This document shows, in pieces, positions 256 through 16,615 of a DNA stretch of 17,409 nucleotides (positions are counted from its first letter, which is position 1; each line of letters begins with the position of its first letter). Below the pieces are notes generated by a model that was not told the origin of the DNA, searched no databases, and was given only the letters and a program-made list of their open reading frames with translations. Position numbers and translations under genes: made by a program. The stretch lies in NCBI GenBank assembly GCA_029259835.1, contig JAJDEL010000812.1:1-17409 (forward strand), written 5' to 3'. Origin of the DNA: Planctomicrobium sp. (lineage in GTDB: Bacteria; Planctomycetota; Planctomycetia; Planctomycetales; Planctomycetaceae).

Positions 256-347
256 CGACTTAGATGCGCGCAGAGTAGAATCGTTTTGGACTCTCTTTCA
301 CTCTCCTTGTGGTCGCAAAAACTAGCACATACAGACAGGCTTGAAGA

Positions 348-1388: not shown

Positions 1389-1455
1389 AGCCGATTCATC
1401 GACTCGACAGCATTTTCAAACATGCTGCAAAAGCTACACTCAGCAAAGCAATTTC

Positions 1456-2502
1456 ATGACGACAGAAGAACTCCGAAACATCCTGCTCGACGGGATCGCC
1501 ATCCCGGCGCATCCGATGGCACTCGACACGAATCGCAAACTGGACGAGCGACGGCAGCGGGCGCTCAGCCGCTACTATCTTGCCGCGGGTGCTGGTGGTT
1601 TGGCTGTGGGCGTTCATACAACTCAGTTTGCAATCCATGATTCGAGCGTAGGTCTCTACGAACCGGTTCTCGCAATCGCTGCTGAAGAGATGGATCGAGC
1701 GACGGACCGTCCCATTGTCCGCGTGGCTGGAATTATCGGTAAAACGCAGCAAGCCGTTCGCGAAGCGGAACTCGCCCGCGACCTTGGTTACCACACCGGC
1801 TTACTCGGCCTCGCTGCGATGAAAGGCTCAAGCGAAAACGAAATCATCGCTCATTGCCGAGCGGTCGCAGAGGTCATCCCGGTATTCGGGTTCTATCTGC
1901 AGGAAGGCGCTGGCGGAGTCGACTTGCCATATTCATTCTGGAAGAAGTTCGTCGAGATCGAAAACGTTATCGCAATAAAAATCGCTGCGTTTGATCGATA
2001 TAAGACCATCGATGTTGTTCGAGCGTTAGCAGAATCTGGGCGCGAGGACATCGCCCTGTACACCGGCAATGACGACAACATCGTTCAGGATTTGATGACG
2101 ACCTATCGTTTTATGGTCAATGGAAATCCGGTTGAGAAACAATTCTCAGGTGGCTTGCTCGGGCATTGGGCAGTCTGGACGGAGAAGTCGATTGAGCTTT
2201 TGCAGCAAGCGAAGCAAGAAAAAGAAAATGGGCCGATCTCACCGGAAATGATGATTTGTAATAACGAAGTGACCGACTGCAACGCCGTCTTATTTGATGC
2301 ACCAAATCAGTTCCGCGGCTGTATCCCTGGCTTGCTGGAAGTTCTTCGTCGGCAAGGACTCCTCGAAGGCATCTGGTGCCTGGACGAAAACGAAGTTCTC
2401 AGCCCAGGTCAATTCGGAGAAATCGACCGCCTCTATCAAGACTACGCACACTTGGCAGACGACGAGTTCGTCAAAGAAAACCTCGATGCCTGGCTCGCAT
2501 AA
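1456..2502 (+). CDS. Dihydrodipicolinate synthase/N-acetylneuraminate lyase family protein
   Basis: This is a 348-residue (beta/alpha)8 class I aldolase-type protein of the DapA/NanA superfamily. Members form a Schiff base between a lysine and an alpha-keto acid such as pyruvate, then condense or cleave. The strand-6 lysine is visible in VIAIKIAAF (K175) and the paired tyrosine in VFGFYLQE (Y147). The GVHTTQF segment (T55, T56) sits where DapA has its paired threonines. The protein is longer than classic DapA (about 290 residues), with a C-terminal helical extension, so it is a divergent subfamily and should not be called dapA. The frame is open back to 1345, but that would overlap the upstream stop. 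ATG 1456 gives the normal family N-terminus (TTEELRNILLDGIAIPAHP) and is preferred, although no clear Shine-Dalgarno precedes it. The phosphoesterase gene follows 25 bases on. Confidence 0.88.
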   Translation: MTTEELRNILLDGIAIPAHPMALDTNRKLDERRQRALSRYYLAAGAGGLAVGVHTTQFAIHDSSVGLYEPVLAIAAEEMDRATDRPIVRVAGIIGKTQQAVREAELARDLGYHTGLLGLAAMKGSSENEIIAHCRAVAEVIPVFGFYLQEGAGGVDLPYSFWKKFVEIENVIAIKIAAFDRYKTIDVVRALAESGREDIALYTGNDDNIVQDLMTTYRFMVNGNPVEKQFSGGLLGHWAVWTEKSIELLQQAKQEKENGPISPEMMICNNEVTDCNAVLFDAPNQFRGCIPGLLEVLRRQGLLEGIWCLDENEVLSPGQFGEIDRLYQDYAHLADDEFVKENLDAWLA

Positions 2503-2527
2503 CACTGTTCTACTCAAGGCATGATTG

Positions 2528-3433
2528 ATGAACGAAAACAACTTGCACCGCCGTGAATGGATACAAACAACAGCCGGTCTAGCGGTTGGCAGCCTTTTTA
2601 CTTCTTTTGCATTGGCACAGACCCAGGGTCACTCGCCGATTCAATTCACTGTCATTACGGATACTCACCTGGGTCGTAAAGACAATGACTCAGCGAAGCG
2701 GCAGTGGGAAAAGACCGCTGCTGATCTGGCGACGACGAAATCGGCGTTCGTTCTTCATCTCGGAGATGTCGTCGATGGTGGGCGAGTGAATCAGTACCCG
2801 ATCTACAAAGAAATCCGTAAGCAGATTCCAGTTCCGGTCTACGAAATCCCAGGCAATCATGATCCAGATGAAGCCTTTGCAAAACACCTTCGCAAGGAGA
2901 TCGATACCATCGTGCAACACGACTGGTTAAGCGTCGTACTGATGGGGAACGCGCACAGCGATTCACACGATGGATTCTTTACCACCGCTCAACTTGACTG
3001 GCTCGAAAAGCAGTGTTCGGAGGCCGTAAAAAATAACAAACTCGTGCTCATTTGCTGCCACGTGCCGGTGCACTCGAATCGACACCCCGACCGTGGTTGG
3101 TATGTCAAGCCGGATCAGGGACAGAAGCGCTTCTACGAAATCGTTACCCAATACAAAGACCGCCTACTCGGAACATTCCACGGACACTTCCACAACGGTC
3201 TACGAGGCTGGGACGACCGGAAACCGTTCCACGAAATCTGCTTCCCTTCGGCACTCTACAATCTCAAACGCGGTCTCGAAGAAAAAAAAGCCCCCGGCTA
3301 CAACCCAGACGAGTTCCGACCAGGCTACGCCAACGTCACCATCGGAAACGGAAAGATGACAATTGCTTACCAGGCAACCAGTGCGGAAAGTAAGATTGAG
3401 AAAATTTTAGATAGTGTTTCACAACACAGTTAA
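2528..3433 (+). CDS. Exported calcineurin-like metallophosphoesterase
   Basis: The product is 301 residues with the complete five-block metallophosphoesterase signature: DTHLG (D45, H47), GDVVDGG (D80, D83), GNHD (N110, H111), CCHVP (H178) and GHFH (H220, H222). These bind the dinuclear metal centre of phosphodi- or monoesterases. The N-terminus (HRREW, then a hydrophobic stretch ending near ALAQT) looks like a twin-arginine leader with a weakened consensus, so export to the periplasm is likely, perhaps as a folded metalloprotein. AAGG at 2516-2519 lies 8 bases before ATG 2528, favouring it over the TTG three bases earlier. It sits between the DapA-like gene and the LVIVD gene on the same strand. 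The substrate is unknown; cyclic nucleotides, phospholipids or sugar phosphates are all possible. Confidence 0.88.
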   Translation: MNENNLHRREWIQTTAGLAVGSLFTSFALAQTQGHSPIQFTVITDTHLGRKDNDSAKRQWEKTAADLATTKSAFVLHLGDVVDGGRVNQYPIYKEIRKQIPVPVYEIPGNHDPDEAFAKHLRKEIDTIVQHDWLSVVLMGNAHSDSHDGFFTTAQLDWLEKQCSEAVKNNKLVLICCHVPVHSNRHPDRGWYVKPDQGQKRFYEIVTQYKDRLLGTFHGHFHNGLRGWDDRKPFHEICFPSALYNLKRGLEEKKAPGYNPDEFRPGYANVTIGNGKMTIAYQATSAESKIEKILDSVSQHS

Positions 3434-3445
3434 AAGATATTTGCA

Positions 3446-3461
3446 AGGCAGAATTCTGCCT
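3446..3461. repeat. Perfect 16-nt palindrome between phosphoesterase and LVIVD genes
   Basis: AGGCAGAATTCTGCCT is its own reverse complement. As RNA it would form a 6-bp GC-rich stem with an AATT loop. It lies 12 bases after the phosphoesterase stop and about 57 bases before the next start. There is no T-run after it, so it is not an obvious intrinsic terminator. It could be an RNA-stability hairpin, an operator or a short dispersed repeat. Confidence 0.55.
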
Positions 3462-3518
3462 GCCGTTGGTCTTCCTCGCCGCTTCACCGCGCAAGGATTG
3501 AGTGGAAGGAATAGAGAG

Positions 3519-6500
3519 ATGCGTTTTTCCTCTACGGTATTCTGTAGCTTGTTAATGCTAGCCACGAACGTGGCGTCCGCAGCTGATGCGCCATTTTCAG
3601 CCGGCGAACTCAAGAAGCAGACTTTCGCATTAGCTGAGAAGTACTTCGAGCAGTTTCAGCATCCGCAAACGTATGTGTTGTACGGGGCGAAGCTGTCAAC
3701 GAAAGAGAGTTGGACAACTCCAGCGGAGATCAAATCTCGCCAACCGAAACCATGGGGGTATGGGTCGCGGGTCGCCGACACCTCGCTTCACTGCGGTCAT
3801 GTGCTGGTCGCATTGCTCGACGCAAACGATGCAGCGCCTGATCCGTATCTGCGGGGTAAGGCTGAGGAATTGTACGCCGCATTAAAGTTCATCGGAGGCA
3901 TCTGTCCGGTCGAAGGACTCGTACCGCGCGGGCCACATCCGGATGATGCTGCAGCGTACTATGATGACTCGTCGATGGACCAGCACACGACGTACATCAT
4001 CGCACTGGCTCGCTACGCCAGCAGCGACCTGGCGACAGCAGAGGACAAGGAATGGATCGCGAAAAAGCTGAGCGAGATCGGGCAGAGGTTGGAGAAGTAC
4101 AACTTCTCAATCAAGGCCGCCGATGGCGTGACCGAATCGCACGTCGGCTTCTCCTGGAAGGGCTTTCGCAATAACCATGTGTCGATCCTGATCCCCACAC
4201 TTTACGCGCTCTATCAAGGAACGGGAGACGATCACTGGCTGAAACTGCACAATCAATTTCTCTCTGAACGTGATGGATTACGTTGGAAACGGTTACACAC
4301 CGGCGACCATGTCGAACTGAACGGGCACCCGATTTATGCTAACCAGAATGGATTCCGACTCAACGCCTACCTGCACTTCCTCGATGATCCAGCAAAGCGC
4401 ACGGTGATCAGCGATCTGCTTGCACAGAGCGCGCAGATGCAGCTTGATCGAGATTTCCCTGGTCCGTTCTACCGAAAGTTTCACAGCGATGAAGCTTGGA
4501 CGACGATGGAACGCAAGCACAACTGGGGTGATTCCGAGTTACGAGGTGCAGAGTCGGCATGGAATTTGTTCCGACCGGAAATGCTCGATGAAAGAGGCGG
4601 CCTCGCCACGTTGGCTCACGTGCGTTTCCCGCTCGGTGGCTATCATCTTGTCTTGATGAGCGATCGCGCTGAATTGATTCGCCGTGACATGCCAACAATC
4701 TGGAAGATGCTGACGACAGTGGATCTGCAAAAGATTTCCGCTGCGGAAACGCACTATCTGTTCACGACTGTCGCACTGCACGCTTATGCGTATTACCACA
4801 GAAACCCGGATCTGTTCGCCGATCAATCCAGTTTCGGTCCTCGACTTACCAACCCGTTCAACGTTGGAATCGGCCCGACGATTGACGTCACAATTGAAGG
4901 TGAGTACGCCTACGCGATTGGCAACCGTACTTTGCAAGTACTGGATATCAGACAACCTGAGCAGCCTCGACCAGTCGGAAAACTCGATGGACTCGGCAAT
5001 GTCCGACAGATTGTCGTCGAATCCGGGATCGCATACATCACCTCGCGTGAAGATGGCTTGTTCATCATTGATGTGAGCGACCCGACAAGTCCCAAGCTGA
5101 TCTCGCGTCACGACACAATCGAGTTCGCAACTGGCGTTTGCAAATCCGGGGATGTCCTGTTCGTCGCGTGCCGATCATTTGGAGTGGAGTTGATTGACGT
5201 CTCCGACTCAGCTAGGCCACGTCACCTAAGCATCGTACGGACCGGTGAGGCACAGTCGGTTATCGAGCGGAACGGCTACTTATACGCTGGAGTATGGGGG
5301 TCATCGGAAGTTGTCACGGTCGATGTGCGTAATCCCTGGAAACCTCGAATCACATCACGAGCACCTCTTGACGGATACGGAGACGGTGTTGCATGTCACG
5401 GAGACTCTCTCTACGTCGCCACAGGGCATCACTCACGTCAACAACCGCGAAAAAAAACTGGCGATCCCGGTTTTGGACATGGCCACGGTCTGGAGGTGTT
5501 TAGCATTGCAGACCCTGAGCAGCCGAAGCCGGTCGCTCGTGTGAAGTTCCCGCCGAGTTACAACATTCGTAATGATCTGTGGAGCGTGGCAATTGCCAAC
5601 GACCACGCGTTCGTCGCCGATACTCACAATGGTGTCTTCGTACTGAATGTTCAGAACCCGCAACAACCGAAATTTGTTGGACACTGGAAACTTCCACAGA
5701 AAGATGGCGAGAAGCTCGCCGGCTACGTCGGTGGATTGGTTCCCGCCGAAGATGTGATCTACGTTGCTGGTGGTCAAAGTGATCTCCACGTCCTCGCTGC
5801 TCCCGATATCGCGCGAGTCCCGGTTGTCGAAGCTACTGCTGTTGTGAAAATTCCAGATGTAAGGCCCACTGAATCCGATGCCCCTTACCGCGCGTATCGC
5901 ACGGATGGTCAGGTTTACGCAGTGGACTTCGCCGGTGACACGGCAATTGTGGCATGCGGAATTGCAGGCGTGCATATGCTTAACCTCACTCCACAATTCA
6001 AGAGCCTGTCGCGACTCAATACGGCAGGCAAGGCGACGGATCTCTGTGTTTTCAGTGACCGTATTTACATCGCCGAAGGAAACGCGGGGCTGGGCATTTA
6101 CCGCCTTGACTCGGGTAGTGTGCTTCAAGAGATCGGGCGATACACCGTCCCGAACAAGTCGATCAAACAAGTCGAAGTTCCTGGCGATGGTGCGTTTGCG
6201 TTGTTGCAAATCGGCGTTCACAAGATCCAGATCATTGATCTTTCCGATCCAACCAACCCACGCAAAGTCCTGGAAGACCAACACCCTGGTCTTTTGTACG
6301 GAGATCAGTTGATGCGTGGCCTCGTCGACGACCGCTATGCCTGTGCGTTTTGGCACGTTTCAGGTTTGCACTGGTACGACCTGAAGGCAGAAGGCGGGCC
6401 GCGATACACGGAGGACAACTTTCGTGGGCGGATTGGCTCAGGCAACGGTCTGATTGCCTACAATGGCAAGACTTTGGCGATGACTCGCGGTGGGTATCTT

Positions 6501-6779
6501 CTGCTTGATCGTGACGAACGCCGCGAACTTAGTGACGTGCAGCTCTACAGAATCGGCAAGCAACGTCGGCACCTTGGTAAGCCCACAATCGCTGGCGACC
6601 GCCTGTACGCTGTTGACCGACAATTCGGATTCGTCACCATCGCTGACATTGCTGATTCGAAGAACCCCAAACTGATTGATCAGTTTGAGTTGCCCGGCAA
6701 TCCATCCAGAGCCGTTGTTCATGCTGAAACCCTGATTATCCCTGACGGCTACCACGGCCTGCTGGTGTTCGACCGCTAA
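3519..6779 (+). CDS. Large exported protein with helical N-domain and LVIVD-repeat propeller region
   Basis: The product is 1086 residues. Residues 1-21 form a Sec signal peptide (MRFSST..., hydrophobic core, ASA|AD cleavage). Residues about 30-440 are helix-rich with many Trp, Tyr and His and motifs such as SMDQHTTYIIALARYA and GFSWKGFRNNHVSILIP; this resembles an alpha/alpha-toroid, but I cannot name a family. From about residue 450 to the end there are at least ten units of roughly 40 residues of the form 'V..I.VEGGYAYV....GL.IIDVSDP..P', the LVIVD repeat, which folds as beta-propeller blades. ATG 3519 has AGGA 8-12 bases upstream and starts the signal peptide. The frame is open back to a GTG at 3414, but that would overlap the previous gene and bury the leader. 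The sequence suggests a periplasmic or surface binding or enzymatic role, perhaps on polysaccharide; substrate unknown. It is the last gene of the run. Confidence 0.85.
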   Translation: MRFSSTVFCSLLMLATNVASAADAPFSAGELKKQTFALAEKYFEQFQHPQTYVLYGAKLSTKESWTTPAEIKSRQPKPWGYGSRVADTSLHCGHVLVALLDANDAAPDPYLRGKAEELYAALKFIGGICPVEGLVPRGPHPDDAAAYYDDSSMDQHTTYIIALARYASSDLATAEDKEWIAKKLSEIGQRLEKYNFSIKAADGVTESHVGFSWKGFRNNHVSILIPTLYALYQGTGDDHWLKLHNQFLSERDGLRWKRLHTGDHVELNGHPIYANQNGFRLNAYLHFLDDPAKRTVISDLLAQSAQMQLDRDFPGPFYRKFHSDEAWTTMERKHNWGDSELRGAESAWNLFRPEMLDERGGLATLAHVRFPLGGYHLVLMSDRAELIRRDMPTIWKMLTTVDLQKISAAETHYLFTTVALHAYAYYHRNPDLFADQSSFGPRLTNPFNVGIGPTIDVTIEGEYAYAIGNRTLQVLDIRQPEQPRPVGKLDGLGNVRQIVVESGIAYITSREDGLFIIDVSDPTSPKLISRHDTIEFATGVCKSGDVLFVACRSFGVELIDVSDSARPRHLSIVRTGEAQSVIERNGYLYAGVWGSSEVVTVDVRNPWKPRITSRAPLDGYGDGVACHGDSLYVATGHHSRQQPRKKTGDPGFGHGHGLEVFSIADPEQPKPVARVKFPPSYNIRNDLWSVAIANDHAFVADTHNGVFVLNVQNPQQPKFVGHWKLPQKDGEKLAGYVGGLVPAEDVIYVAGGQSDLHVLAAPDIARVPVVEATAVVKIPDVRPTESDAPYRAYRTDGQVYAVDFAGDTAIVACGIAGVHMLNLTPQFKSLSRLNTAGKATDLCVFSDRIYIAEGNAGLGIYRLDSGSVLQEIGRYTVPNKSIKQVEVPGDGAFALLQIGVHKIQIIDLSDPTNPRKVLEDQHPGLLYGDQLMRGLVDDRYACAFWHVSGLHWYDLKAEGGPRYTEDNFRGRIGSGNGLIAYNGKTLAMTRGGYLLLDRDERRELSDVQLYRIGKQRRHLGKPTIAGDRLYAVDRQFGFVTIADIADSKNPKLIDQFELPGNPSRAVVHAETLIIPDGYHGLLVFDR

Positions 6780-7114
6780 AGAATTGGCCTGAATCCGTCA
6801 GCAATTTTCTTTCAACAACCACCGCGAATCGCAACAAGTGCTTGTTTGGCAGGGAAGTTGGGATACACTCGATGTAGTCGGGCTGGGGGTTGTGACGGCT
6901 GTTTTTGCGATATTACGTAAATATAATGATCCAATTTTGGACATCATGCGTTTTCAGAAGCAGAGTGGTCGTTGTATCGACATGAGAGATGAGCATCAGG
7001 CTCCATACACTCCATAAAATCACTTCATTCGAAATGCTTCTTTGCTGGCTGATGTTGTATTGTTGCTGAATCACAGTTTGCTGAAACAAAGCGAACCACC
7101 GGGAGAGTTCAAAA
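6780..7114. other. 335-bp intergenic region upstream of the SPFH pair
   Basis: I see no convincing gene here. The only small frame noted (ATG 6946, 23 codons) has no ribosome site. A good -10-like TATAAT lies at 6922-6927, inside an AT-rich patch (6908-6930). No matching -35 at 16-18 bases is evident (TTGTGA at 6890 is 26 bases away), so a promoter for the SPFH genes is possible but weakly supported. GGGAG at 7101-7105 is the Shine-Dalgarno of the first SPFH gene. A short AACAAG/CTTGTT inverted repeat at 6833-6846 could mark the end of the upstream transcript. Confidence 0.35.
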
Positions 7115-8686
7115 ATGTCAAACGAATCCTATCGATCCAAAAATTATCCCTCGCAACGGGCCGCTATGGGGGCCGCCAAAGTTGCAGGGACGATCGTCTT
7201 TCTGATCGTGATGTCGTGGGGAACGTACTCTCAGTTCCGCATCGAAGTGCCGTCGAAGCATATGGCGGTTCTGATCAAGAAGACCGGAAAGAACATCACA
7301 AACGGCGACGAAATTGCTCCTGGTCCGGAGTTCAAAGGTGTGCAAAAAAATGTGCTCACCGAAGGTCGTTACTTCTACAATCCGTACAACTGGGAATGGG
7401 ATGTCATCCCGCAAATTGAGATCGCAGAGGACAAGCTCGGCGTGATGATCAGCCTCACCGGCGAGGATCTTCCGTACGGAGAATTTCTCGCAAAAAATGA
7501 CGATCAGGGAAACCCGATCACGAAAGGAATCGTTGAACAAGTTCTCAAGCCTGGTCGCTATCCGATCAATCCCTATCTGTTCAAAATTGAAGACCAGCAC
7601 ACACCGAAAGTCATCGAAGCCGGGTATCAGGGAGTCGTCACGAATCTTGCTGCCCCGCTTCCGAAAACTGCAAACACGTTGCTCGTCGAAGAAAACGAAC
7701 GAGGCGTTCAACAACCGACTCTTGAACCAGGGACGTATTACATCAACCCCTACGTGACACGAATCAGCCTGGTCGATTGTCGCAGTCAGCGATTTGACCT
7801 TGCGAAGAACAAGGACATGGGATTTCCTTCGCGAGATGGTTTCTGGATCAGCCTGGATGGACGTGTTGAATTCCGCGTTGACCCGGAGAAAGCAGCCGAA
7901 GTCTTTGTGACTTACAATGACGAGACAAACGGCGACCGCATTGACGAAGAAATTATTCTCAAAGTGATCACACCAAACGCGCGCAGCTTCTGTCGCCTGG
8001 AAGGGTCAAACAGTTCAGGCCGTGAGTTTATCTCCGGGGAAACCAAAGTCGAGTTTCAAAATCGATTTAAAAAAGCAATGCAGGAAGCCTGCGAACCTCT
8101 GGGTATCGAAATTATTCAGGCGTTGATTACGGACATCAAACCTCCAGAAAAAATTCGCGAGCCTGTTCGTGAAAAAGAGCTCGCGATTCAGCAGGAGAAG
8201 GAATACCGACAGCAGATCAGCGAACAAGTCGAACAACAGAAACAGGCGACAGAAGAAGAAATGGTCAAGCAAAAGCAGGCTCTTGTCAAAGCTGAGCTAG
8301 ACGTCGTTAAGGTCACGATTGAGGCGGAGCGTCAGCAGGAAGTGGACCTCACCAAAGCGAGCGAACGCAAATCTGTCGCTGAGTACAAGCTGCAAGCAGC
8401 CAAGGATGAAGCTTCCGCGATTATGTCACTCGGAAAAGCGGAGGCCGACGTGATCGGTTTTCAGAACGAAGCCGATGCCGCCGGGTGGAAACGATCTGTC
8501 GAAGCCTTCAGCGGAGATGGAAATCAGTTCGCACGCTACGTTCTGTTCCAGAAGTTGTCGTCCTCGTATCGGAAAATCATGGTGAATACGGCAGATAGTC
8601 CGATTATGAAAATCTTCGAGTCCTTCTCAGCAGAACCTGCTCCGCCGACAACAACCCCTGTGAAGACAGAGATTGCGGCACCGTGA
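7115..8686 (+). CDS. Membrane-anchored SPFH/band 7 protein with three GRY-NP repeats (paralogue 1)
   Basis: The product is 523 residues. A transmembrane helix lies at about 21-38 (KVAGTIVFLIVMSWGTY). Three spaced copies of one motif follow: GVQKNVLTEGRYFYNPYNW (75-), GIVEQVLKPGRYPINPYLF (138-) and GVQQPTLEPGTYYINPYVT (197-), about 60 residues apart. The SPFH core is at about 220-345 (WISLDGRVEFRVDPEKAAEV, then the ITDIKPPEKIREPV exit). Next is a charged coiled coil of about 345-460 rich in Q, E and K, an A-x-VEAF segment and a Pro/Thr tail. SPFH proteins (stomatin, flotillin, HflK/C) oligomerise into membrane-bound cages or scaffolds. GGGAG stands 9 bases before the ATG. The paralogue starts 74 bases after the stop, so an operon encoding a hetero-oligomer is likely. 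Start and family are sure; the function is not. Confidence 0.87.
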   Translation: MSNESYRSKNYPSQRAAMGAAKVAGTIVFLIVMSWGTYSQFRIEVPSKHMAVLIKKTGKNITNGDEIAPGPEFKGVQKNVLTEGRYFYNPYNWEWDVIPQIEIAEDKLGVMISLTGEDLPYGEFLAKNDDQGNPITKGIVEQVLKPGRYPINPYLFKIEDQHTPKVIEAGYQGVVTNLAAPLPKTANTLLVEENERGVQQPTLEPGTYYINPYVTRISLVDCRSQRFDLAKNKDMGFPSRDGFWISLDGRVEFRVDPEKAAEVFVTYNDETNGDRIDEEIILKVITPNARSFCRLEGSNSSGREFISGETKVEFQNRFKKAMQEACEPLGIEIIQALITDIKPPEKIREPVREKELAIQQEKEYRQQISEQVEQQKQATEEEMVKQKQALVKAELDVVKVTIEAERQQEVDLTKASERKSVAEYKLQAAKDEASAIMSLGKAEADVIGFQNEADAAGWKRSVEAFSGDGNQFARYVLFQKLSSSYRKIMVNTADSPIMKIFESFSAEPAPPTTTPVKTEIAAP

Positions 8687-8760
8687 GGTTCACCGTCATC
8701 GCAGGAATTGTTTAGAAACAGCCTCAGTCGAACACAGTCTTAACTTGCTGGAGTGCTCTC

Positions 8761-10413
8761 ATGGCTTTTGAAATTCGGAAGTATTCTTCAATCTATAAAA
8801 TCGTCGCGGTTTTCGGCGTACTACTTGTGACTGGCTGGACGCTCTTTGAGTGGACAATCAACCGCATCTACGTCGAACAAGGGTACAGCCTGCTCTTACG
8901 GTACAAGGGGAAACCTCTCCCGTTCCTGCCAGGGATCTCGAAAGCTGCGCAGCCAGGGCAGTTCGCTGAAGTGAACGCCAATGGCTACCCGGTAGAATTG
9001 GGAGTCATTGAAGAAATGCGTGGACCAGGCCGGCACTTTTATTGCCCAATCTGGTGGGAACGAATCATTGTTGAGGATCAATTGGTCGAACCAGGCCATG
9101 TCGGAATTGCCACAAGTAAAATGGGGAAATCTCTGGGGCAAAGTGAGTATCTTGTTGACGGAGACCTTGGATCAACAGAGTACAAAGGGATCGTGCGGAA
9201 AGTCTTCGGCCCTGGACGATACCGCGTCAACACGTATGCGTACGAATTCACGCAAGTCGAATTGGTCAAACTCACTTCTGGTAGCCAGATCAAGCACTCC
9301 GGGTGGGTCGATATTCCAACTGGTTATGTCGGAGTCGTCACAAACCTGGCAGGAAATCCGGCAAAGAAAACGAAACCTGGTATTCAGGAAGAAGTGATGC
9401 CGCCGGGGCTTTATCCCATCAATCCCAAAGAACAGCAGATCGATATTGTCGAGATTGGTTACCGCGAGGTGAGCATCATCGCCAATCTTCAACTCGATCA
9501 AGAAGGAAATCTTGTCCTGGACGAAAGTGGCGAACCAGTCCTCGCCGACGACGAGAGTGGGATCACTTTTCCATCGAATGACGCCTACCAAATCAACATG
9601 GATTTCACTGCGATTTGGGGCATCATGCCCGATCAGGCATCCGGAGTGATCCGTAAATTTGGAAACGTCGATGCCGTGGAAAACAAAGTCGTGGTTCCGC
9701 AAATTGAAAGTATCTGTCGCAACAGGGGTTCGACACTAGGAGCGGTCGAACTTCTCGAAGGAGTCTCTCGGCAGAAATTCCAGGATGACACGTCAACAGC
9801 GTTCCAAACCGTTCTGAGTGACAAAGGGATTACTTTGCTGGAAGGAGTTGTACGGCACATCTACATCCCCCAAGACATCCGCTTGCCGATCCAGAATGCG
9901 TACATCGCCGACGAGAAAAAACTCGCCTTGGAACAAAAGCAAATCACGACGCGAACTGAAGCCGAACTCGAAGAAGCGCGAGCGAAGGTAGATCTGGAAA
10001 CGGAAATCGTTCGTGTCGATACAGAAAAGAAAGTCGCCAAGTTACTCGCCGAAGGTGAGAAAACAGCGGAAGAAACAAATGCCGAAACAATTCAATTGGC
10101 TGCTGCTATCGACAAAGAGACAGCAGAACTCGACGCTCAGGCAAAAGTGATTATCGGTGAAGCCGAATCGAATGCAAAGAAGATGCTCGAAGAAGCCAAA
10201 GCTGACAAGTTTCGCCTGGCAGTCGAAGCCTTCGGAGCCGGTGATGCCTACAATCAGTGGGTTTTTGCAAACGGCCTGCCTGAAGATATCCAACTCGACT
10301 TGCTCTACGCCGGCGAAGGAACTTTCTGGACCGACCTGAAAGGTTTTTCTGAAACACTGCTCGGTCGCGAGGCTCAACAATCGATGCCAAAGAAGTCGAA
10401 CTCTCGACCATAA
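8761..10413 (+). CDS. Membrane-anchored SPFH/band 7 protein with three GRY-NP repeats (paralogue 2)
   Basis: The product is 550 residues with the same layout as its upstream neighbour. A membrane helix lies at about 13-30 (KIVAVFGVLLVTGWTLF). The three motif copies are GVIEEMRGPGRHFYCP (81-), GIVRKVFGPGRYRVNTY (143-) and GIQEEVMPPGLYPINP (207-), spaced 62 and 64 residues. GYVGVVTNLAG before the third copy matches GYQGVVTNLAA in paralogue 1. The SPFH core is at about 270-375, ending HIYIPQDIRLPIQ; an Ala/Glu/Lys coiled coil covers about 380-480; then RLAVEAFGAGDAYNQW and a YAGEGTFWTDL tail that paralogue 1 lacks. GGAG lies 7 bases before ATG 8761. Overall identity between the two proteins is low outside these motifs, so the duplication is old. 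A paired cage like HflK-HflC is the natural model (inference). Confidence 0.87.
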   Translation: MAFEIRKYSSIYKIVAVFGVLLVTGWTLFEWTINRIYVEQGYSLLLRYKGKPLPFLPGISKAAQPGQFAEVNANGYPVELGVIEEMRGPGRHFYCPIWWERIIVEDQLVEPGHVGIATSKMGKSLGQSEYLVDGDLGSTEYKGIVRKVFGPGRYRVNTYAYEFTQVELVKLTSGSQIKHSGWVDIPTGYVGVVTNLAGNPAKKTKPGIQEEVMPPGLYPINPKEQQIDIVEIGYREVSIIANLQLDQEGNLVLDESGEPVLADDESGITFPSNDAYQINMDFTAIWGIMPDQASGVIRKFGNVDAVENKVVVPQIESICRNRGSTLGAVELLEGVSRQKFQDDTSTAFQTVLSDKGITLLEGVVRHIYIPQDIRLPIQNAYIADEKKLALEQKQITTRTEAELEEARAKVDLETEIVRVDTEKKVAKLLAEGEKTAEETNAETIQLAAAIDKETAELDAQAKVIIGEAESNAKKMLEEAKADKFRLAVEAFGAGDAYNQWVFANGLPEDIQLDLLYAGEGTFWTDLKGFSETLLGREAQQSMPKKSNSRP

Positions 10414-10893
10414 ACGCGGGTTGCCTCGAACGATTCTTATAGGAGTCGTCCCAGAGTAAATAACCGAATTGATTGAGTCTGAATCAACCGTTTGGGCGCT
10501 AGCCCCGGTTCTGAGCGTGAACCGAAATCCGATCCGGAGCTAGCGCCCAAACGGCTGATATCGGGAATCCCTGACCAGTCTGCGCAGCCATAATAGGCTG
10601 CAAGTGGGTCGATGCATTACTCACAAACTCCCTCGGCTCATCACCCAAAATTTCACTGTCCCACCCGGCGACACTTTCTCTCTTCTATCTAGTGAAGACA
10701 TCCTCTGGTAGAATTTGGACTGTGGTTCGTCAACGTCGAAGATTAGGGTTGATGAACGTTCTGATAGCGACAACGGAGCGGTATCCTTGAGTACCGACTC
10801 CAAGTTTCAAGCCTGACAAGGCACCGAATTCATATTTCATTGACCCAGTCAGACATCGTTCCAGATGTCTTTTAGATACCGGAGAACGGCTCA
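10414..10893. other. 480-bp intergenic region with a REP-like palindrome
   Basis: The left part holds two inverted repeats: TTGATT/AATCAA at 10469-10487, followed directly by the long palindrome 10484-10558 (listed separately). The right part (10560-10880) shows no reading frame with a credible ribosome site; a 60-codon minus-strand frame at 10621-10803 has no family features. TTGACC at 10840-10845 could be a -35 element, but no suitably spaced -10 is seen. GGAGAA at 10881-10886 is the ribosome site of the next small gene. Confidence 0.5.
10484..10558. repeat. REP-like long interrupted palindrome
   Basis: The arms CCGTTTGGGCGCTAGC (10488-10503) and GCTAGCGCCCAAACGG (10539-10554) are perfect reverse complements over 16 bases. 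They extend to about 25 bases each (10484-10508 and 10534-10558) with two mismatches. The 25-base spacer carries a further CGGTTC/GAACCG pair overlapping the left arm. It lies about 70 bases after the second SPFH gene. GC-rich arms, intergenic position and nested symmetry suggest a dispersed REP/MITE-like element that may also stop or protect the transcript. No second copy is in this window. Confidence 0.7.
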
Positions 10894-11115
10894 ATGGCCA
10901 AAAAAAAGCAGAAGAAAGAGAAAGAGCGTCAGAAGCGAGTTGCCAAGAAAAAACTCGAAGCGGCTGCGAAACGACGTGAAGACGACAAAAACAACAAGGA
11001 AACCAAAAACACAACAACCAAGAAGTCGGCCTACACAAAAACCGCGAACGCCAAGGCATCTCAGGTCGCTGGCACCAGCCAAAAATCCTTCACCCAACGC
11101 CGCAGCGGCGGCTAA
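10894..11115 (+). CDS. Small lysine-rich protein of unknown function
   Basis: The product is 73 residues with 19 Lys and 6 Arg, opening MAKKKQKKEKERQKRVAKKK. Residues 1-30 look like a charged helix and the remainder is Lys/Thr/Asn/Ser-rich and probably disordered. There is no signal peptide, membrane segment or metal motif. GGAGAA at 10881-10886 lies 7 bases before the ATG, which supports a real gene despite its size. Composition suggests binding to nucleic acid or another polyanion, but that is inference from charge alone; a low-complexity spurious frame remains possible. It stands alone between two large intergenic regions. Confidence 0.62.
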   Translation: MAKKKQKKEKERQKRVAKKKLEAAAKRREDDKNNKETKNTTTKKSAYTKTANAKASQVAGTSQKSFTQRRSGG

Positions 11116-11470
11116 GTTGAGCTGTAGTCGCCTCATTGGTTCAGAGGAAGTTAGCAGATTTTCACAGTCGAGTGGCACGCCCAACACGTAACGAAGTGGA
11201 GTAATGGGCGTGGCGAGCGTTGAGTCGACGTTGGTATGCTCTGATGACAAAGATGAAAATGATGGACAGTACATTACCAACGATGGAAGAATGAAAGTCA
11301 ACACTGGAATCCGCCACACCCATCCTTCCGCTGCGCTACACTCTGAGCGTGCCACCCGTCCGCCACACCCCACTCTGAGCGTGCCCCGTGGCTTGCGGCT
11401 AAAATTCTCGGGTTAATTTTCTCTCACTATCAGTTACAATTCATGCTTCTTCACTCCATGGGGGAAATTC
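11116..11470. other. 355-bp intergenic region upstream of the thioredoxin-like gene
   Basis: It contains a CACGCCC/GGGCGTG inverted repeat at 11176-11182 and 11206-11212, and a direct-repeat pair at 11311-11385 (listed separately). No gene is supported; the frame at 11204-11416 spans the repeats and has no family features. TACAAT at 11435-11440, preceded 16 bases earlier by TTAATT (11413-11418), is a weak promoter candidate. A strong Shine-Dalgarno, GGGGG at 11460-11464, precedes ATG 11471. Confidence 0.4.
11311..11385. repeat. Two-part direct repeat in intergenic DNA
   Basis: CCGCCACACCC occurs at 11311-11321 and again at 11360-11370. CACTCTGAGCGTGCC occurs at 11339-11353 and 11371-11385. 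The two elements are in the same order, 17 bases apart in the first unit and abutting in the second. This looks like a decayed tandem duplication or two copies of a dispersed intergenic element. CCGTGGCTTGCGGCT follows immediately. Confidence 0.6.
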
Positions 11471-12742
11471 ATGATTTGCACTCTGCGTATTCGAGATGTG
11501 TTTGTGGTCCTGGCGGTCTACTACCAGAGCCTCATTCTAATGGCTCAGGCGCCGGTCGAAGAAGTGATCATTCCTAAACAGCTTCAATCACTCGACGCCG
11601 ACATTCAGAAGCAACGAAACGTTTGGAAAGCCGCTCTCACCACAGCGCTTTCAGATGAAGGGAAACAGACTCCGGAATGGTGGACAGTTGATGAACGATT
11701 CGATCCATTGTCGGTCAATGGTCAGTCTTTACTAAACTATGCTCGAAAACACCCTGGGACTCCAGAGTCGCTGATTTGCTTGGCGTACATCGTCGATTGG
11801 GGAGAGGGACAGCCGTCCCATATCTTTCGTGCGGCAGCCGATGAAATCATCGCCCATCATAAGAATGATCCCGCGCTGTCATGGATTTGCTCTCGTTGTG
11901 CAAATCCAATGAACTCCGATGAGATGTGGACATTTCTGACGCGACTACGACGCGCGTCCACGAATCCAGTAGTTCAAGCCGCAGCAACATTTCATCTCGC
12001 GCGACTTCATGATGTTTCATTTCAGATTCAATTTCGAATTCCTGATCACCTCGAAAGTTTTGAAACCGCTGGTGCATTTGAGGCACGTCCTGATATCCGC
12101 AGTCGCCTGCAGGCTCTCATCGATATGGATCCAGGCGAACTTGCCAGCGAACGCGACAGATTACTCAGCGAATTCAGCGTGCGTTTCGCGGATGCAAAAC
12201 CGTGGCTTGCAACGAGAACTTGGGGACGATTGAATTATGAATTTCACGAAGACGACAATGGGCAGACGTTTAAGCAACTTGCGGATGAGCTTTCCTACGA
12301 AACCACAAACCTTCGAGTCGGTTGCATTGCGCCAGATTTCACTGGAACACGTACAGATGGTCAACCGTTCCGACTTCAAAACCGTCGCGGCAAACCAACG
12401 CTACTCATGTTTTCATTTAAGGGCTGTGGTCCGTGCGAAGCAATGTATCCATCGTTGAGAACAATTCAGAAAAAGTATGCAAAATCAGGATTCTCTGTCA
12501 TCGGGATCATGGTCGACGAAGAGAAAAAGACCGTTACGACGTCTCAAAAATCTGGTGTCATCTCATGGCCATGCATCTGGGAAGGACGCTCCGGACCCAT
12601 CGCAGAAACTTACAAAGTCCGCCACTACCCAACAGTGTTGCTTCTTGATAACGAAGGGCAAATTGTCGCAACAGACATACGAAAAAAAGACCATCTGATT
12701 GCTTATCTTGAGGAGATTTTGAAGAGCATTTCAAACCCATGA
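11471..12742 (+). CDS. Exported TlpA-like thioredoxin-fold protein
   Basis: The product is 423 residues. A short hydrophobic leader (about 9-26, ending LMAQA) suggests export. Residues about 30-280 form a helical, Trp-rich region of no family I recognise. Residues about 284-420 are an AhpC/TSA-TlpA redoxin domain: GCIAPDFTGTRTDGQPF, then the active site FKGCGPCEAMYP (C319, C322), then the cis-proline strand HYPTVLLLD (P387). Such proteins reduce disulfides or supply electrons outside the cytoplasm. The CGPC pair is intact, so the domain is probably active. GGGGG at 11460-11464 precedes the ATG by 6 bases. Planctomycetes often carry such large N-extended redoxins, and the extension may bind the partner (inference). 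It ends convergently toward the minus-strand block. Confidence 0.86.
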   Translation: MICTLRIRDVFVVLAVYYQSLILMAQAPVEEVIIPKQLQSLDADIQKQRNVWKAALTTALSDEGKQTPEWWTVDERFDPLSVNGQSLLNYARKHPGTPESLICLAYIVDWGEGQPSHIFRAAADEIIAHHKNDPALSWICSRCANPMNSDEMWTFLTRLRRASTNPVVQAAATFHLARLHDVSFQIQFRIPDHLESFETAGAFEARPDIRSRLQALIDMDPGELASERDRLLSEFSVRFADAKPWLATRTWGRLNYEFHEDDNGQTFKQLADELSYETTNLRVGCIAPDFTGTRTDGQPFRLQNRRGKPTLLMFSFKGCGPCEAMYPSLRTIQKKYAKSGFSVIGIMVDEEKKTVTTSQKSGVISWPCIWEGRSGPIAETYKVRHYPTVLLLDNEGQIVATDIRKKDHLIAYLEEILKSISNP

Positions 12743-12807
12743 ACTCTGATAGAACAGGGGCGTCATTATTCTCGGGCCACGGGGCGGCTCAACCGGCAAG
12801 TCTGTTT

Positions 12808-12822
12808 GGCCACCCTGTGGCC
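12808..12822. terminator. Possible bidirectional hairpin after the thioredoxin-like gene
   Basis: GGCCAC CCT GTGGCC forms a perfect 6-bp stem with a 3-base loop. GGCTC (12786-12790) and GAGCC (12829-12833) give an outer stem. It sits between the convergent redoxin gene and aminotransferase remnant. There is no T-run on either strand, so it is not a classic intrinsic terminator. Confidence 0.35.
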
Positions 12823-12849
12823 TGCGAAGAGCCTGACTTATCTATCTAT

Positions 12850-13188
12850 TCACTCCATTACAGCTTTCACCGCCTCCGCAAGACGCTTCATCCCGTCCTT
12901 GATGCCGTCTGGGGTTTGGACTCCGTAGCTGAGTCGCATTTGGTGAAACGGTCGATCTTCGACCGGACCGGCGTAGCAGAGTTCGCCGGGGACGTACATG
13001 ACGCCGTTCTGAACGGCCTGTTTGAAGAGTGGGCTTTCGAAGCCGGTGGCGAGTGATTCCGGGAGGGACATCCAGACGTACAGGCCGCCGTGTGGAGTGA
13101 CCCAGGTAACGCCTTCGATGCCGCTAAAGTAACTGTCGGCGGCAGCGAGCATGGCGTCTCGTTTTTCTTGATACCCAGCGCGGACTTT
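12850..13188 (-). pseudogene. Detached C-terminal fragment of a PLP aminotransferase
   Basis: The minus strand encodes 112 residues from KVRAGYQEKRDAM to AVME and a TGA. It matches residues 317-428 of the intact aminotransferase at 14838-16124. Both segments are exactly 339 bases with no indel; by hand I count about 50 base differences (85 % identity) and 13 residue differences (88 %). An in-frame TAA at 13189-13191 closes the frame just upstream, and the PLP-binding part is missing, so no working enzyme can be made. The reading frame is undamaged, so an internal start (ATG at 13152) cannot be excluded but would give a fold-less stub. Substitutions at nearly neutral spacing suggest an old copy rather than a recent tandem duplication. 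Confidence 0.88.
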
Positions 13189-13191
13189 TTA

Positions 13192-13321
13192 GATGAATTT
13201 CGTAAACACCACTCGTACCAACTCTTCTCCCGCAAACTTCACCCACCCTTCAGCCACTTCTTCCAATCGGCGACGCGATTTCGACTCGATCCAGTTGTTC
13301 TCTGCGTTCGCCGGGAAAAAC
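13192..13321 (-). other. Unassigned scrap between two gene remnants
   Basis: On the minus strand one frame is open through this stretch and ends at TAA 13189-13191. Its peptide, including WIESKSRRRLEEVAEGW and VKFAGEELVRVVFTKFI, looks like the natural C-terminus of a protein rather than random sequence, but I recognise no family. The last 25 bases also resemble, poorly, the intact aminotransferase just upstream of its shared segment (SGVY-like reading in another frame), so the exact junction is unclear. Confidence 0.35.
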
Positions 13322-13372
13322 TCACAGAACGAGGATCGATCCGATCCAACTCAGTGGCCGTAATTTGATCAT
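13322..13372 (-). pseudogene. Severed start of a second EF-hand/SGNH-type gene
   Basis: The minus strand has AGGAG at 13383-13379, a 6-base spacer, then ATG 13372 and the peptide MIKLRPLSWIGSILVL before TGA. The intact EF-hand gene begins MIQLKHLSWIGCILTL; 11 of 16 residues and 35 of 48 bases agree by hand count, including AGTTGGATCGGA in a row. It begins 23 bases after the stop of the intact gene. A tandem paralogue whose body has been lost is the simplest reading. Confidence 0.6.
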
Positions 13373-13395
13373 CACATTCTCCTGTATTCTGGATT

Positions 13396-14616
13396 TTAAT
13401 CACCGATCCCGTCGCCGTTGGCGTCCTCCACGCCGGACAAGGGGTTCGCCAGAACGGCCTGCCAGGCGATCTCGCGGAACTTGTCATGAAGCGCCCGACT
13501 CGGGAAGCCGTCCCCTTTTTCGCCCACCCGACTTTTGATGAGGGCTGGCGATTTTTTGTAAAGAGTTGCATAGAAGACGTATCCCTCCAGCCATTCGAGG
13601 CCTGGCCCGAGATGCCCGAGCGGGTCGCGCCAGAGAGCGTTTTCCTCCGCCTTGCCGACGGCCCTATGGATGCCCTCGATGCCGGGCAGTTCGCCGCGGT
13701 GGTAGGCCTCGACCGCGAGAGTCAGGGCCTCGCTCGTCGGGAGGACGAAGATTCGATCACCGTGGGTCTCACGGAGTTCACCGATGAGTTCTTCGAAGAC
13801 CGCGTCTTTCTGTTCATCGATGCCTCGGATGAGTTCGCCGGTAAGTTCGTCCTCCGAGGCTGGGGGTTTCTCCATGTGTCGGATCGAGGGCCAGGCATCC
13901 GAAAGGTAGAACTTCATTCCTGGCGAATGCTGGTCACAGAACTCGATCCAGCAACCGTAAAAACGAGCGCGGTCAGCAATGTAGGGTCCCCACATCATCG
14001 CGTCCCATTTGGCGTTCGCGATAGAGGCGAGGAGCTTCGGTGTAGGCTTTCCATCGAACTGGAAGATTCCGTTTTCCTGCTCCCACTTGTAGCGGGCGCT
14101 GCCGGTGACGCCCCCGCTTGTGTGAAGGTGGAGCGGTTGCTCGGCGAAGCCGGCCGCCCGAACGATCCCGGGGAGACTTCTATAGCCAGGGGCCATGAAG
14201 CTATGACCAGTGCCCACGATCCGCAGGGCACCGTCGGCTGGTTTGTCGAAGGAGGCGATCTTCGGAAAGAGAGCCTTCAGTTCATCGGGAGTCTTGTAGC
14301 AGGCCGCGTGATCAGGGAAACGCGTCTCCATCCAGCCCGGATCGAATTTCGGCGCGGTTTTTTTCCCGCCTCGCTTGGGCTTTTTCTGCAAGCGACGGGC
14401 CTCGTCGCGGTAATCGAGCGCCTCTTGGACTGTGAGTTTTCCGTCGCCATTCTCATCGGCCTCCGGAAACTGTTTCAGCCAGCGGGCCAGCTGTTCGGGT
14501 GTGACCTTCCGATTGGGCTTCTGTGCGAGGAGAGGCGGCGTCATCACGGCGCTCAGGGTGAGGATACATCCGATCCAACTGAGGTGTTTTAATTGAATCA
14601 TCATCTTCATGTTCAT
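13396..14616 (-). CDS. Exported EF-hand protein with SGNH-hydrolase-like domain
   Basis: The product is 406 residues from ATG 14616. A signal peptide (LSWIGCILTLSAVMTPPLLAQ) covers about 12-32. A canonical EF-hand calcium loop follows: D54-E-N56-G-D58-G-K60 to E65. After a Lys-rich linker, the main domain starts LRIVGTGHSFMAPG, where S139 fits the nucleophile position of an SGNH hydrolase. DPLGHLG (D331, H335) could supply the acid/histidine pair. The SGNH call is inference; the domain is more distant than textbook esterases. The protein ends DANGDGIGD (398-406), a second calcium-loop start cut by the stop, so the C-terminus may be naturally short or truncated. Several in-frame ATGs (14616, 14610, 14604, 14601) lie close together and none has a good ribosome site; homology to the downstream fragment favours 14601 or just above. 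GC is somewhat higher than in most neighbours. Confidence 0.75.
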   Translation of the reverse strand: MNMKMMIQLKHLSWIGCILTLSAVMTPPLLAQKPNRKVTPEQLARWLKQFPEADENGDGKLTVQEALDYRDEARRLQKKPKRGGKKTAPKFDPGWMETRFPDHAACYKTPDELKALFPKIASFDKPADGALRIVGTGHSFMAPGYRSLPGIVRAAGFAEQPLHLHTSGGVTGSARYKWEQENGIFQFDGKPTPKLLASIANAKWDAMMWGPYIADRARFYGCWIEFCDQHSPGMKFYLSDAWPSIRHMEKPPASEDELTGELIRGIDEQKDAVFEELIGELRETHGDRIFVLPTSEALTLAVEAYHRGELPGIEGIHRAVGKAEENALWRDPLGHLGPGLEWLEGYVFYATLYKKSPALIKSRVGEKGDGFPSRALHDKFREIAWQAVLANPLSGVEDANGDGIGD

Positions 14617-14766
14617 TTGCTGGTTAGCATCACTCGTCCCCGGAGGGGACAGCGCCAATGTGCTTTTCATTAGAGGAACTGTTTATGGGGCGTCGGCGAC
14701 TTGAAAATGGTGTCGCTGAAGCCCTGCTAACATCCTTAATTTCTAACTGTGAGAACATCGTCTCAC

Positions 14767-14788
14767 AAAAACACTGGCAGAGCCAGTG
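14767..14788 (-). terminator. Intrinsic terminator of the aminotransferase gene
   Basis: Read on the minus strand, CACTGGC-TCT-GCCAGTG (14788 to 14772) is a perfect 7-bp stem with a 3-base loop and is followed at once by TTTTT (14771-14767). It lies about 50 bases after the aminotransferase stop. A second hairpin (TGTGAGA/TCTCACA, 14748-14767) follows it. Together they should separate aminotransferase transcription from the EF-hand gene. Confidence 0.78.
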
Positions 14789-14837
14789 GAACACTCAATT
14801 CAACCGTAATTTTGTCAGTGCCACCCGTCGAAACGCT

Positions 14838-16124
14838 TCACCTCACTACACTTTTCACAGCCTCAGCAAGTCGTTCCATTCCTTTGTTGATCCCGTCCGG
14901 GGTTTGGACTCCATAGCTGAGACGCATTTGGTGGGATGGGCGGTCTTCGGCAGGGCCGGCGTAACAGAGTTCGCCGGGGACGTACATGACGCCGTTCTTC
15001 ACGGCCTGTTTGAAGAGTGGGCTTTCGAAGCCGGTCGCGATGCTTTCCGGGAGTGACATCCAAACGTACAAGCCGCCGTGCGGAGTCACCCAGGTAACGC
15101 CATCTATGTCGCTGAAGTATCGGTCGGCCGCGGCGAGCATGGCGTCTCGTTTTTCCTGATAGCCTGCGCGGACTTTTTGCAGATGGGTTTTGTACACGCC
15201 GCTACGGAGGGTTTCGGCGATCAGGTGTTGGTTGAAGTTTGCAGAGCCGAAGTCTTCGTTCCCTTTGCGATCACAAATCGGTCCAACAAGATCACTCGGC
15301 AACACTCCAAAACCAACACGAATTCCAGGCGAGAATGTTTTGGAAAACGTTTGCGTGTAGATGACTTGATCGCGCGAGTCGTCGAAAGACCACAAGCTGG
15401 AGTGGACAGGTCCGTCGTATTGCAATTCTCGGTAGGCTGCATCTTCGAGGACAAGAATCCGATGATCGCGCGACCACTTCTTTGCGATATCGACAATTTC
15501 TTTTCGGCGCTCAGTTGAAACACAAACCCCGCTGGGGTTGTCGTAGTAACTAACAACATAGATGAGTTTCACTCGATGCAACTCCTGCATCGCTGCGATT
15601 TGTTCCAGAGCGTGATCGAGTGCAGCCGGCTGCATACCGTCATCATCGGCAGCAATTGTGACTGTTCTCGCATCGACGCCGGCCAAGTTCCCAGCAAAGA
15701 CGAAGTACGTTGGCCCGGCAACGAGGCAGATATCGCCTGGATCGAATAATGTTTCACAAACAAGCGAAAGCAACTGTTGAGAGCCGGTCGTTGCGATCAA
15801 CTGAGTTTCATCGATCCCCAACGAGGCGACATCGCTCCCTTCAAGAGATGCGAAATGCTTGAGTAACTCTTCTCGAAGCTCTGCACTCCCTTGAGTTGTC
15901 CCGTACTGCAATGCCAGACGCCCAGATTCTTCCGTCTCCAAGACCCTTGAAGCAGCTTGAAGTGCATCACCCACTGGCAACGTCATCGGATCGACCAATC
16001 CGGCTGCGAGTGAAATGCAATTAGGATTTTCAACGCCTTGCTGCATCAGAAAGCTGATTGCGAGATCCCGCGTCTGGTGACTTCGCTGACTGTAGAGGAT
16101 CGGGAGCTTCATTTTGGAATTCAT
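14838..16124 (-). CDS. Fold-type I PLP-dependent aminotransferase (LysN/MocR-domain type)
   Basis: The product is 428 residues. It moves amino groups between amino and keto acids using pyridoxal phosphate. Landmarks: the GLVDPMTLP loop, ALQYGTTQGSAELREEL (72-87), YYDNPSG (N197), EDAAYREL (D228, Y231), the Schiff-base lysine in TFSKTFSPGIRVGF (K262), and RLSYG (R401) for the substrate carboxylate. This set is the class I/II pattern of 2-aminoadipate- or valine-pyruvate-type transaminases and of the aminotransferase half of MocR regulators; there is no DNA-binding domain here. The substrate is undetermined. ATG 16124 is chosen because the family N-terminus starts there; the frame is open to 16217 but would run through the palindrome. 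No Shine-Dalgarno is clear. The last 339 bases are repeated at 12850-13188. It is divergent from gatC. Confidence 0.9.
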   Translation of the reverse strand: MNSKMKLPILYSQRSHQTRDLAISFLMQQGVENPNCISLAAGLVDPMTLPVGDALQAASRVLETEESGRLALQYGTTQGSAELREELLKHFASLEGSDVASLGIDETQLIATTGSQQLLSLVCETLFDPGDICLVAGPTYFVFAGNLAGVDARTVTIAADDDGMQPAALDHALEQIAAMQELHRVKLIYVVSYYDNPSGVCVSTERRKEIVDIAKKWSRDHRILVLEDAAYRELQYDGPVHSSLWSFDDSRDQVIYTQTFSKTFSPGIRVGFGVLPSDLVGPICDRKGNEDFGSANFNQHLIAETLRSGVYKTHLQKVRAGYQEKRDAMLAAADRYFSDIDGVTWVTPHGGLYVWMSLPESIATGFESPLFKQAVKNGVMYVPGELCYAGPAEDRPSHQMRLSYGVQTPDGINKGMERLAEAVKSVVR

Positions 16125-16146
16125 GTTGCTAGCGTAATAATGATTT

Positions 16147-16169
16147 GCCGTACACTTAAAGTGTACGGC
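16147..16169. promoter_or_regulatory. Perfect 23-nt interrupted palindrome upstream of the aminotransferase
   Basis: The arms GCCGTACACTT (16147-16157) and AAGTGTACGGC (16159-16169) are exact reverse complements around a single A. It lies 22 bases upstream of the aminotransferase start and about 150 bases upstream of gatC. Two-fold symmetry with a GTAC core suggests an operator for a dimeric repressor, or a 5'-leader hairpin. The regulator is not in the window. Confidence 0.6.
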
Positions 16170-16318
16170 GAAACGCTCGGTTTGTCTCTTGCGACATTTT
16201 CGTTCCCAGCATCTCAAAATCGTCGGGCTTTTCGCAGAGCAACCAGCAACTTATAGTGACTGCGTTAAAGATGAATTCATCTTCAACTCGAAAGCTCCTT
16301 CAAACAAAGCGACGACAG

Positions 16319-16612: not shown

Positions 16613-16615
16613 TCA

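Follow-up and report, generated by a model that had tools for sequence, protein, structure and literature searches.

Adjacent SPFH paralogues with tandem entry modules in planctomycetes: a candidate membrane-anchored enclosure with a raised wall

The HflK/HflC proteins of Escherichia coli and prohibitin 1/2 are paired SPFH paralogues in which an N-terminal anchor is followed by the SPFH domain and then by a helix. The body of HflK/HflC faces outward. Prohibitin, erlin, HflK/HflC, stomatin, QmcA, flotillin and the major vault protein (MVP) are ring or cage proteins, as the titles of their structure entries also indicate. Vaults are among the largest particles of eukaryotic cells and their origin is unsettled; MVP has nine repeats and no membrane anchor. 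Here we describe two adjacent genes, termed A and B, from Planctomicrobium sp., a planctomycete and thus a member of a group of bacteria with unusual internal membranes. The genes lie on contig JAJDEL010000812.1 (assembly GCA_029259835.1), analysed over positions 1 to 17,409 of the forward strand, and this whole stretch of 17,409 nucleotides is referred to below as the window. A and B are adjacent SPFH (Band_7) paralogues, and in both of them one N-terminal membrane helix is followed by three tandem units, the SPFH domain, a long helix (about 120 residues) and a conserved tail. The domain order, the homology of the repeats, the predicted fold, the usual adjacency of the two genes and a bias in topology were all observed by computation. 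We favour, with modest confidence, the reading that A and B form an ancient SPFH pair comparable to HflK/HflC or prohibitin 1/2, with a raised wall.

Gene A (7115..8686, 523 aa) and gene B (8761..10413, 550 aa) are both located on the + strand and are spaced by 74 bases. Band_7 was the sole family reported in a Pfam scan of the two proteins at E up to 10. It covered residues 166-371 of A (7610..8227; E 1.9e-30, 106.6 bits) and 185-401 of B (9313..9963; E 5.9e-22, 79 bits), against a gathering cut-off of 23.6, in agreement with the SPFH domain proposed in the initial annotation, which had been made from the sequence alone. All 48 members of the A family alignment matched Band_7 at E up to 1. 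When solved structures were searched by sequence, A retrieved prohibitin 1 (E 7e-5) and B retrieved a thioesterase alone (E 0.012). The genome from which the window derives contains six Band_7 matches, including A and B, and among named relatives the one nearest to A (94% identity) comes from a metagenome record of Planctomicrobium. The SPFH domain leads into a long, cap-helix-like helix in the predicted models, at residues 345-464 in A (8147..8506) and 371-491 in B (9871..10233). The family alignments show a conserved C-terminal segment (VEAF ... NTADSP ... IF) at A residues 462-503 (8498..8623) and the conserved C-terminal motif YAGEGTFWTDL at B residues 516-526 (10306..10338). The latter has no regular structure in the model, and its residues G518, G520, T521, W523 and T524 are invariant among 43 aligned sequences.

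The initial annotation had described three copies of the motif G[IV]xxxVxxPGRYxxNP in each protein, starting at residues 75, 138 and 197 of A and 81, 143 and 207 of B. Both open reading frames and all six starts were found where it had placed them; the pattern itself held in its literal form at A138 only, in a loosened form at A75, A138, B81, B143 and B207, and not at A197 (GVQQPTLEPGTYYINP), which is one position off. Segments roughly 60 residues long were taken as the units, namely R1 (residues 41-100, 7235..7414), R2 (101-163, 7415..7603) and R3 (164-224, 7604..7786) in A, and R1 (37-104, 8869..9072), R2 (105-170, 9073..9270) and R3 (181-243, 9301..9489) in B. Using the sequences of the window alone, nine of the 15 unit pairs scored better than all 2000 shuffles. 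The number of shuffles that did as well was 1 for A1-B1, 1 for A1-B3, 2 for B2-B3, 18 for B1-B2, 111 for A3-B1 and 420 for B1-B3, and the first unit of B was difficult to link to A3, B2 and B3 from a single sequence. At the level of families, hhalign aligned all 15 pairs with probabilities of 89.7-99.7%. A profile built from B units only detected three units in 75/75 A proteins, and a profile built from A units only detected three in 67/68 B proteins and two in the remaining one. The joint unit profile gave exactly three matches in 73/75 A and 68/68 B proteins; it was trained on these same proteins, and the cross-family test is independent of such training. Both sets include the window and near-duplicates (70 A and 61 B proteins are distinct by their last 380 residues) and exclude frames cut by contig ends, frames below 450 aa and the chimera L046. 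The third unit is split by an insert in the remaining two A proteins. These A homologues, at L117 277-2265 and L118 9313-11292, carry an insert of about 110 residues within the third module.

The unit matches within the window (A 41-99, 100-159 and 166-232; B 35-105, 108-168 and 181-242) had E values of 6e-14 to 3e-25. As a control, the profile was run in its most sensitive mode on 4000 shuffled proteins, 135 of which passed E 0.01, so single weak unit matches carry little meaning. In the hhalign comparison the top partner of each unit was its counterpart in the other protein (AR2-BR2 9e-27, AR3-BR3 5e-24, AR1-BR1 7e-21), the last pairing being only narrowly better than AR1-AR2 (1.8e-20). This counterpart-wise pairing suggests, as would be expected in that case, that the triple unit is older than the split between A and B. 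The units of A and B are homologous and their repetition exceeds chance.

In both proteins the third unit falls within the Band_7 match, which begins at residue 166 in A and 185 in B. The third unit is accordingly read as the module with which an SPFH domain normally opens, so that the extra wall would comprise two modules rather than three. The predicted fold supports reading the unit, most simply, as the SPFH entry module, with two additional copies placed ahead of the domain. Among solved structures the module profile matched best to residues 40-68 of prohibitin 1, close to where its SPFH domain starts (E 0.13, too weak alone), and E. coli HflC gave one partial unit match at residues 47-75 (7.6 bits). 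Scores of at most 2.6 bits were obtained for HflK, QmcA and four further SPFH proteins from the window's genome. Tandem copies of the entry module also precede the SPFH core in a slipin from the same genome (L003) and in five homologues, where the pairwise profile probability among the copies was 97-99% over the six sequences. These slipins differ from A and B in having a stomatin-type core, and their modules match the A/B modules only weakly (hhalign probability 3-56%). Tandem modules are therefore not unique to A and B; among SPFH proteins they originated either repeatedly or at a very early stage. The L003 slipin (909-2042) has three entry modules, the two further copies lying within its N-terminal 150 residues, and the slipins L124 and L125 appear by eye to have one further module copy.

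The alignments for the structures comprised 47 of the 49 listed A relatives (those other than L070 and L074) and all 42 B relatives. In the predicted structures of A and B the three motifs correspond to three equivalent beta units, as the initial annotation required of its proposal. The strands of A were placed at residues 42-45, 49-55, 75-81, 84-87 and 93-99 in R1 and at 101-103, 108-113, 138-144, 147-149 and 156-162 in R2; strands were likewise modelled in R1 and R2 of B. Ten-residue means of the predicted local distance difference test (pLDDT) were at least 75 over about residues 21-410, except for B 51-60 (61). Examined for the SPFH fold, A and B both showed it, and the models matched prohibitin, erlin, HflK/HflC, stomatin, QmcA, flotillin and MVP, with prohibitins ranking first by Z (15.4 and 15.6 for A and B, respectively).

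The single N-terminal membrane helix previously assigned to each protein is also predicted here, at B residues 10-32 (8788..8856) and, in A, as a membrane segment within a modelled helix at residues 12-41 (7148..7237), and hydropathy across the families agrees with it. A strongly hydrophobic stretch of 19 residues near the N-terminus (mean hydropathy at least 1.6) was found in 68/75 A and 63/68 B proteins, and a second one in a single A and in no B protein. The net positive charge was higher before the helix than after it in 62/75 A and 56/68 B proteins, equal in 10 and 10, and lower in 3 and 2. This bias suggests an N-in, body-out orientation, and the body of both proteins is probably extracytoplasmic, as judged from these sequence features.

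Conserved adjacency of the two genes, on which the initial annotation had staked its proposal, was borne out in two surveys, which overlap, several contigs being equally long in both. Scanning of named genome contigs yielded 52 loci, of which 49 bear planctomycete names by our own reading; the others, named 'bacterium' (L079), Candidatus Muiribacteriota (L113) and delta proteobacterium (L107), are all metagenome bins. B followed A on the same strand in 49/52 loci, some with B cut by a contig end and one (L091) with B in two frames. Records titled Rubripirellula obstinata, Neorhodopirellula pilleata and Rhodopirellula europaea are among those with the pair. The three exceptions were L099, where the contig ends 92 bases past A, L112, where A is cut at the contig end, and L109, which is rearranged. 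Among 294 genomes drawn from the phylum, A-like matches (E 1e-20) occurred in 45 and B-like matches in 40, and B adjoined A in 36 of the 45 (all places were fetched except the window, and frames were scored with both family profiles). The draw included three further genomes from the genus of the window, and neither A nor B was present in any of them, indicating a patchy presence. In 41 complete pairs the intergenic gap ranged from -20 to 147 bases with a median of 40, nine pairs overlapping; gaps were measured from the first possible start codon, which favours overlap. A quick tree was built from 41 SPFH regions of A/B and seven others; in it B formed one group with a support of 100, and some A clades were mirrored in B (L117-L118, L071-L077 and L086-L103). 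These results identify a conserved planctomycete gene pair.

Hetero-assembly, closure and function of the pair we infer as follows. One N-terminal membrane helix would anchor each subunit, whose body would lie outside the cytoplasm. A beta wall would be formed by three SPFH entry modules stacked on one another, the last of which is already part of the SPFH domain itself. Next would come the SPFH ring, followed by the long helices gathering into a roof that the conserved tails would close. A and B would most likely alternate in a single ring, with R1 beside R1, R2 beside R2 and R3 beside R3, an arrangement favoured by the nearly equal module number, the module-wise correspondence and the close gene coupling. 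The initial annotation had placed a wall built of the repeats between the membrane and the SPFH ring; the predicted fold agrees with an extra wall, built from two modules in place of the three then counted. These two modules would hold the ring and roof further from the membrane and make the enclosed space larger, which suggests that SPFH enclosures can gain height through added modules. The strongly conserved tails (NTADSP in A, GEGTFWTDL in B) would be located at the distal end of the helix, the expected site of roof closure or of a partner. A likely role would be quality control, through the fencing of a membrane patch or of a client complex such as a protease or misfolded membrane proteins; as a guess, such control, exerted on membrane or extracytoplasmic proteins, comes nearest to what SPFH proteins are known to do.

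Several observations weigh against such a two-component enclosure. B is not adjacent in nine of the 45 genomes with A-like matches. Three of these genomes (G144, G159 and G243) carry a lone three-module homologue each, and a one-contig genome (G181) has a single A-B chimera that follows A to about residue 260 and B thereafter, with the joint at the FPSKDGF motif common to both. No B was found within the 4.6 kb fetched past A in G286 or within 1.9 kb past A in G260, where B lies on a different contig; in G161 one frame scores high with both profiles and no B follows in the 1 kb up to the contig end, and in G280 and G173 contig ends are involved. Four unit matches occur in some stop-to-stop frames beyond the analysed sets (G006 B, G149 B, G178 B and G161), the tree did not recover A as a single group and left many forks unresolved, and no clear functional pointer exists among the neighbour genes, none of which recurs widely. 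Confidence in the models of the long helices drops from about residue 420, the pLDDT is below 65 from about residue 431 in both proteins, and the helix ends and tails are of low confidence. These points bear on a rival explanation in which A and B each build a homomeric ring of their own, or rings that stay open and roofless, and the extra modules serve as binding surfaces rather than as a wall. To judge from the lone homologues and the chimera, a single gene can be enough, and the low-confidence roof region is compatible with rings that lack a roof. The usual adjacency, the short gaps, the nearly equal module number and the module-by-module correspondence favour instead a common particle, and we regard separate or roofless rings as unlikely. 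It is still more improbable that A and B are ordinary HflK/HflC orthologues with an N-terminal insertion, serving FtsH. They share with HflK/HflC the adjacency of paralogues, the N-terminal anchors and the SPFH domains, and A matches HflK and B matches HflC weakly; the NCBIfam equivalog scores, however, were 12 bits for A (cut-off 159.4) and 10.4 bits for B (cut-off 134.4). In the tree HflK, HflC, QmcA and slipin grouped together with a support of 86, and A/B were split from all seven other sequences, this split being supported at only about 14, with long branches that make the deep placement untrustworthy. Canonical HflK scored above its cut-off in 53/294 genomes and co-occurred with A/B in G058 alone, i.e., in 1/45 genomes with A/B versus 52/249 without (Fisher p 0.0012). 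This difference weakened in near-complete genomes (1/13 versus 36/141, p 0.19, tables read by hand) and when all HflK matches at E 1e-30 were counted (7/45 versus 74/249, p 0.07), and the genomes are related rather than independent, so that the co-occurrence data are at most a hint of HflK replacement by A/B.

Full-length chains of HflK/HflC and prohibitin, which have one SPFH entry module, align from about A residue 162, as do those of QmcA, stomatin, flotillin and erlin, which share the SPFH domain and helix and have no extra modules; A and B carry two modules more. Vault cage chains start instead at A residues 18-50, most often at residue 42 on MVP 323, and with MVP 9r86 A residues 42-467 were aligned to MVP 323-769. 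The order of tandem beta repeats, SPFH-like shoulder and long cap helix, to which the initial annotation had likened the pair, is thus matched in the predicted fold, more convincingly for A than for B. A profile search against MVP repeats had been proposed there as a check, and no relationship by sequence emerged: no vault family was reported for A or B in Pfam at E up to 10, and no vault chain was listed among solved structures for the profiles of whole A, whole B, modules or tails (E up to 1 or up to 10). The vault family PF01505 gave no match in 21 related genomes, and as 14 controls were equally silent this search is uninformative. A likeness between the tail of A and the cap region of vaults was also considered and, as judged by these profile searches, was not supported. 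A and B differ further from MVP in their membrane helix, in having three modules and in being two paralogues instead of one protein. They may therefore be called vault-like in predicted fold, with kinship to vaults not established. Descent from the vault lineage or a close common ancestor, with the vault wall repeats as multiplied SPFH entry modules and A/B as a membrane-anchored three-module state, is a possible though doubtful alternative. Besides the silent searches, the root-mean-square deviation was 28-40 for the vault alignments of B and 18 for 9z4w on A, and the 3gnf alignment extends into the SPFH domain of A; as 3gnf, according to its title, has no such domain, this match is partly generic. 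The same picture would result if the module had been duplicated independently, and the slipin is evidence that duplications of this kind happen repeatedly. Rather doubtful, too, is the bolder proposal that A and B keep a missing step from membrane SPFH cages to vaults, i.e., an anchored two-component particle with a wall of tandem SPFH entry modules; if true, the vault wall arose through multiplication of the SPFH entry module and loss of the membrane anchor. The link to vaults is credible but unproven. A bacterial membrane-anchored pair with the vault domain order offers a concrete system for testing the growth of the vault wall from SPFH proteins.

Variant forms of the A/B architecture were also recorded by locus. 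L129, L130 and L131 are lone three-module SPFH homologues of one family (f12) without a B neighbour, and lone homologues of this type might resemble the state before the duplication. The single A-B chimeric gene of G181 corresponds to L132 (3164-4852) and L046; it shows that the wall and the ring-plus-roof portion are exchangeable parts. The G161 frame (L134 1036-2745, - strand) scores 561 and 440 bits with the two family profiles, has four unit matches and is possibly a second chimera. The rearranged A/B locus L109 (3-2126) contains five module matches within one open frame.

Regarding the genomic surroundings, 44 loci have a gene upstream; there a group that includes an NAD(P) transhydrogenase, a name taken from L083 only, was placed in 10 loci by loose clustering and in seven, one of them at 34% identity, under stricter criteria. 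An MsrP-like group, named from L078 alone, lies downstream in 5 of the 45 loci with a downstream gene; a protein-methionine-sulfoxide reductase at this place would be thinly compatible with a quality-control role. A defence function was considered and dropped, as neither A nor B matched PADLOC at E up to 0.1, and a plasmid search with A at E 1e-15 gave no match. Within the window, a small and very basic open reading frame of 73 aa (10894-11112), with no NCBIfam match, lies downstream of B. On the - strand, a 100-aa open reading frame (12850-13152) appears by eye to be a near repeat of the C-terminus of the aminotransferase encoded at 14838-16217 (- strand), as if by partial duplication. Just 3' of gene B, positions 10483-10559 form an imperfect inverted repeat with the core CCGTTTGGGCGCTAGC; this core has 39 copies in the genome (at most one mismatch) versus 1 for the reversed control, and is thus probably a dispersed element resembling the repetitive extragenic palindromic (REP) type.

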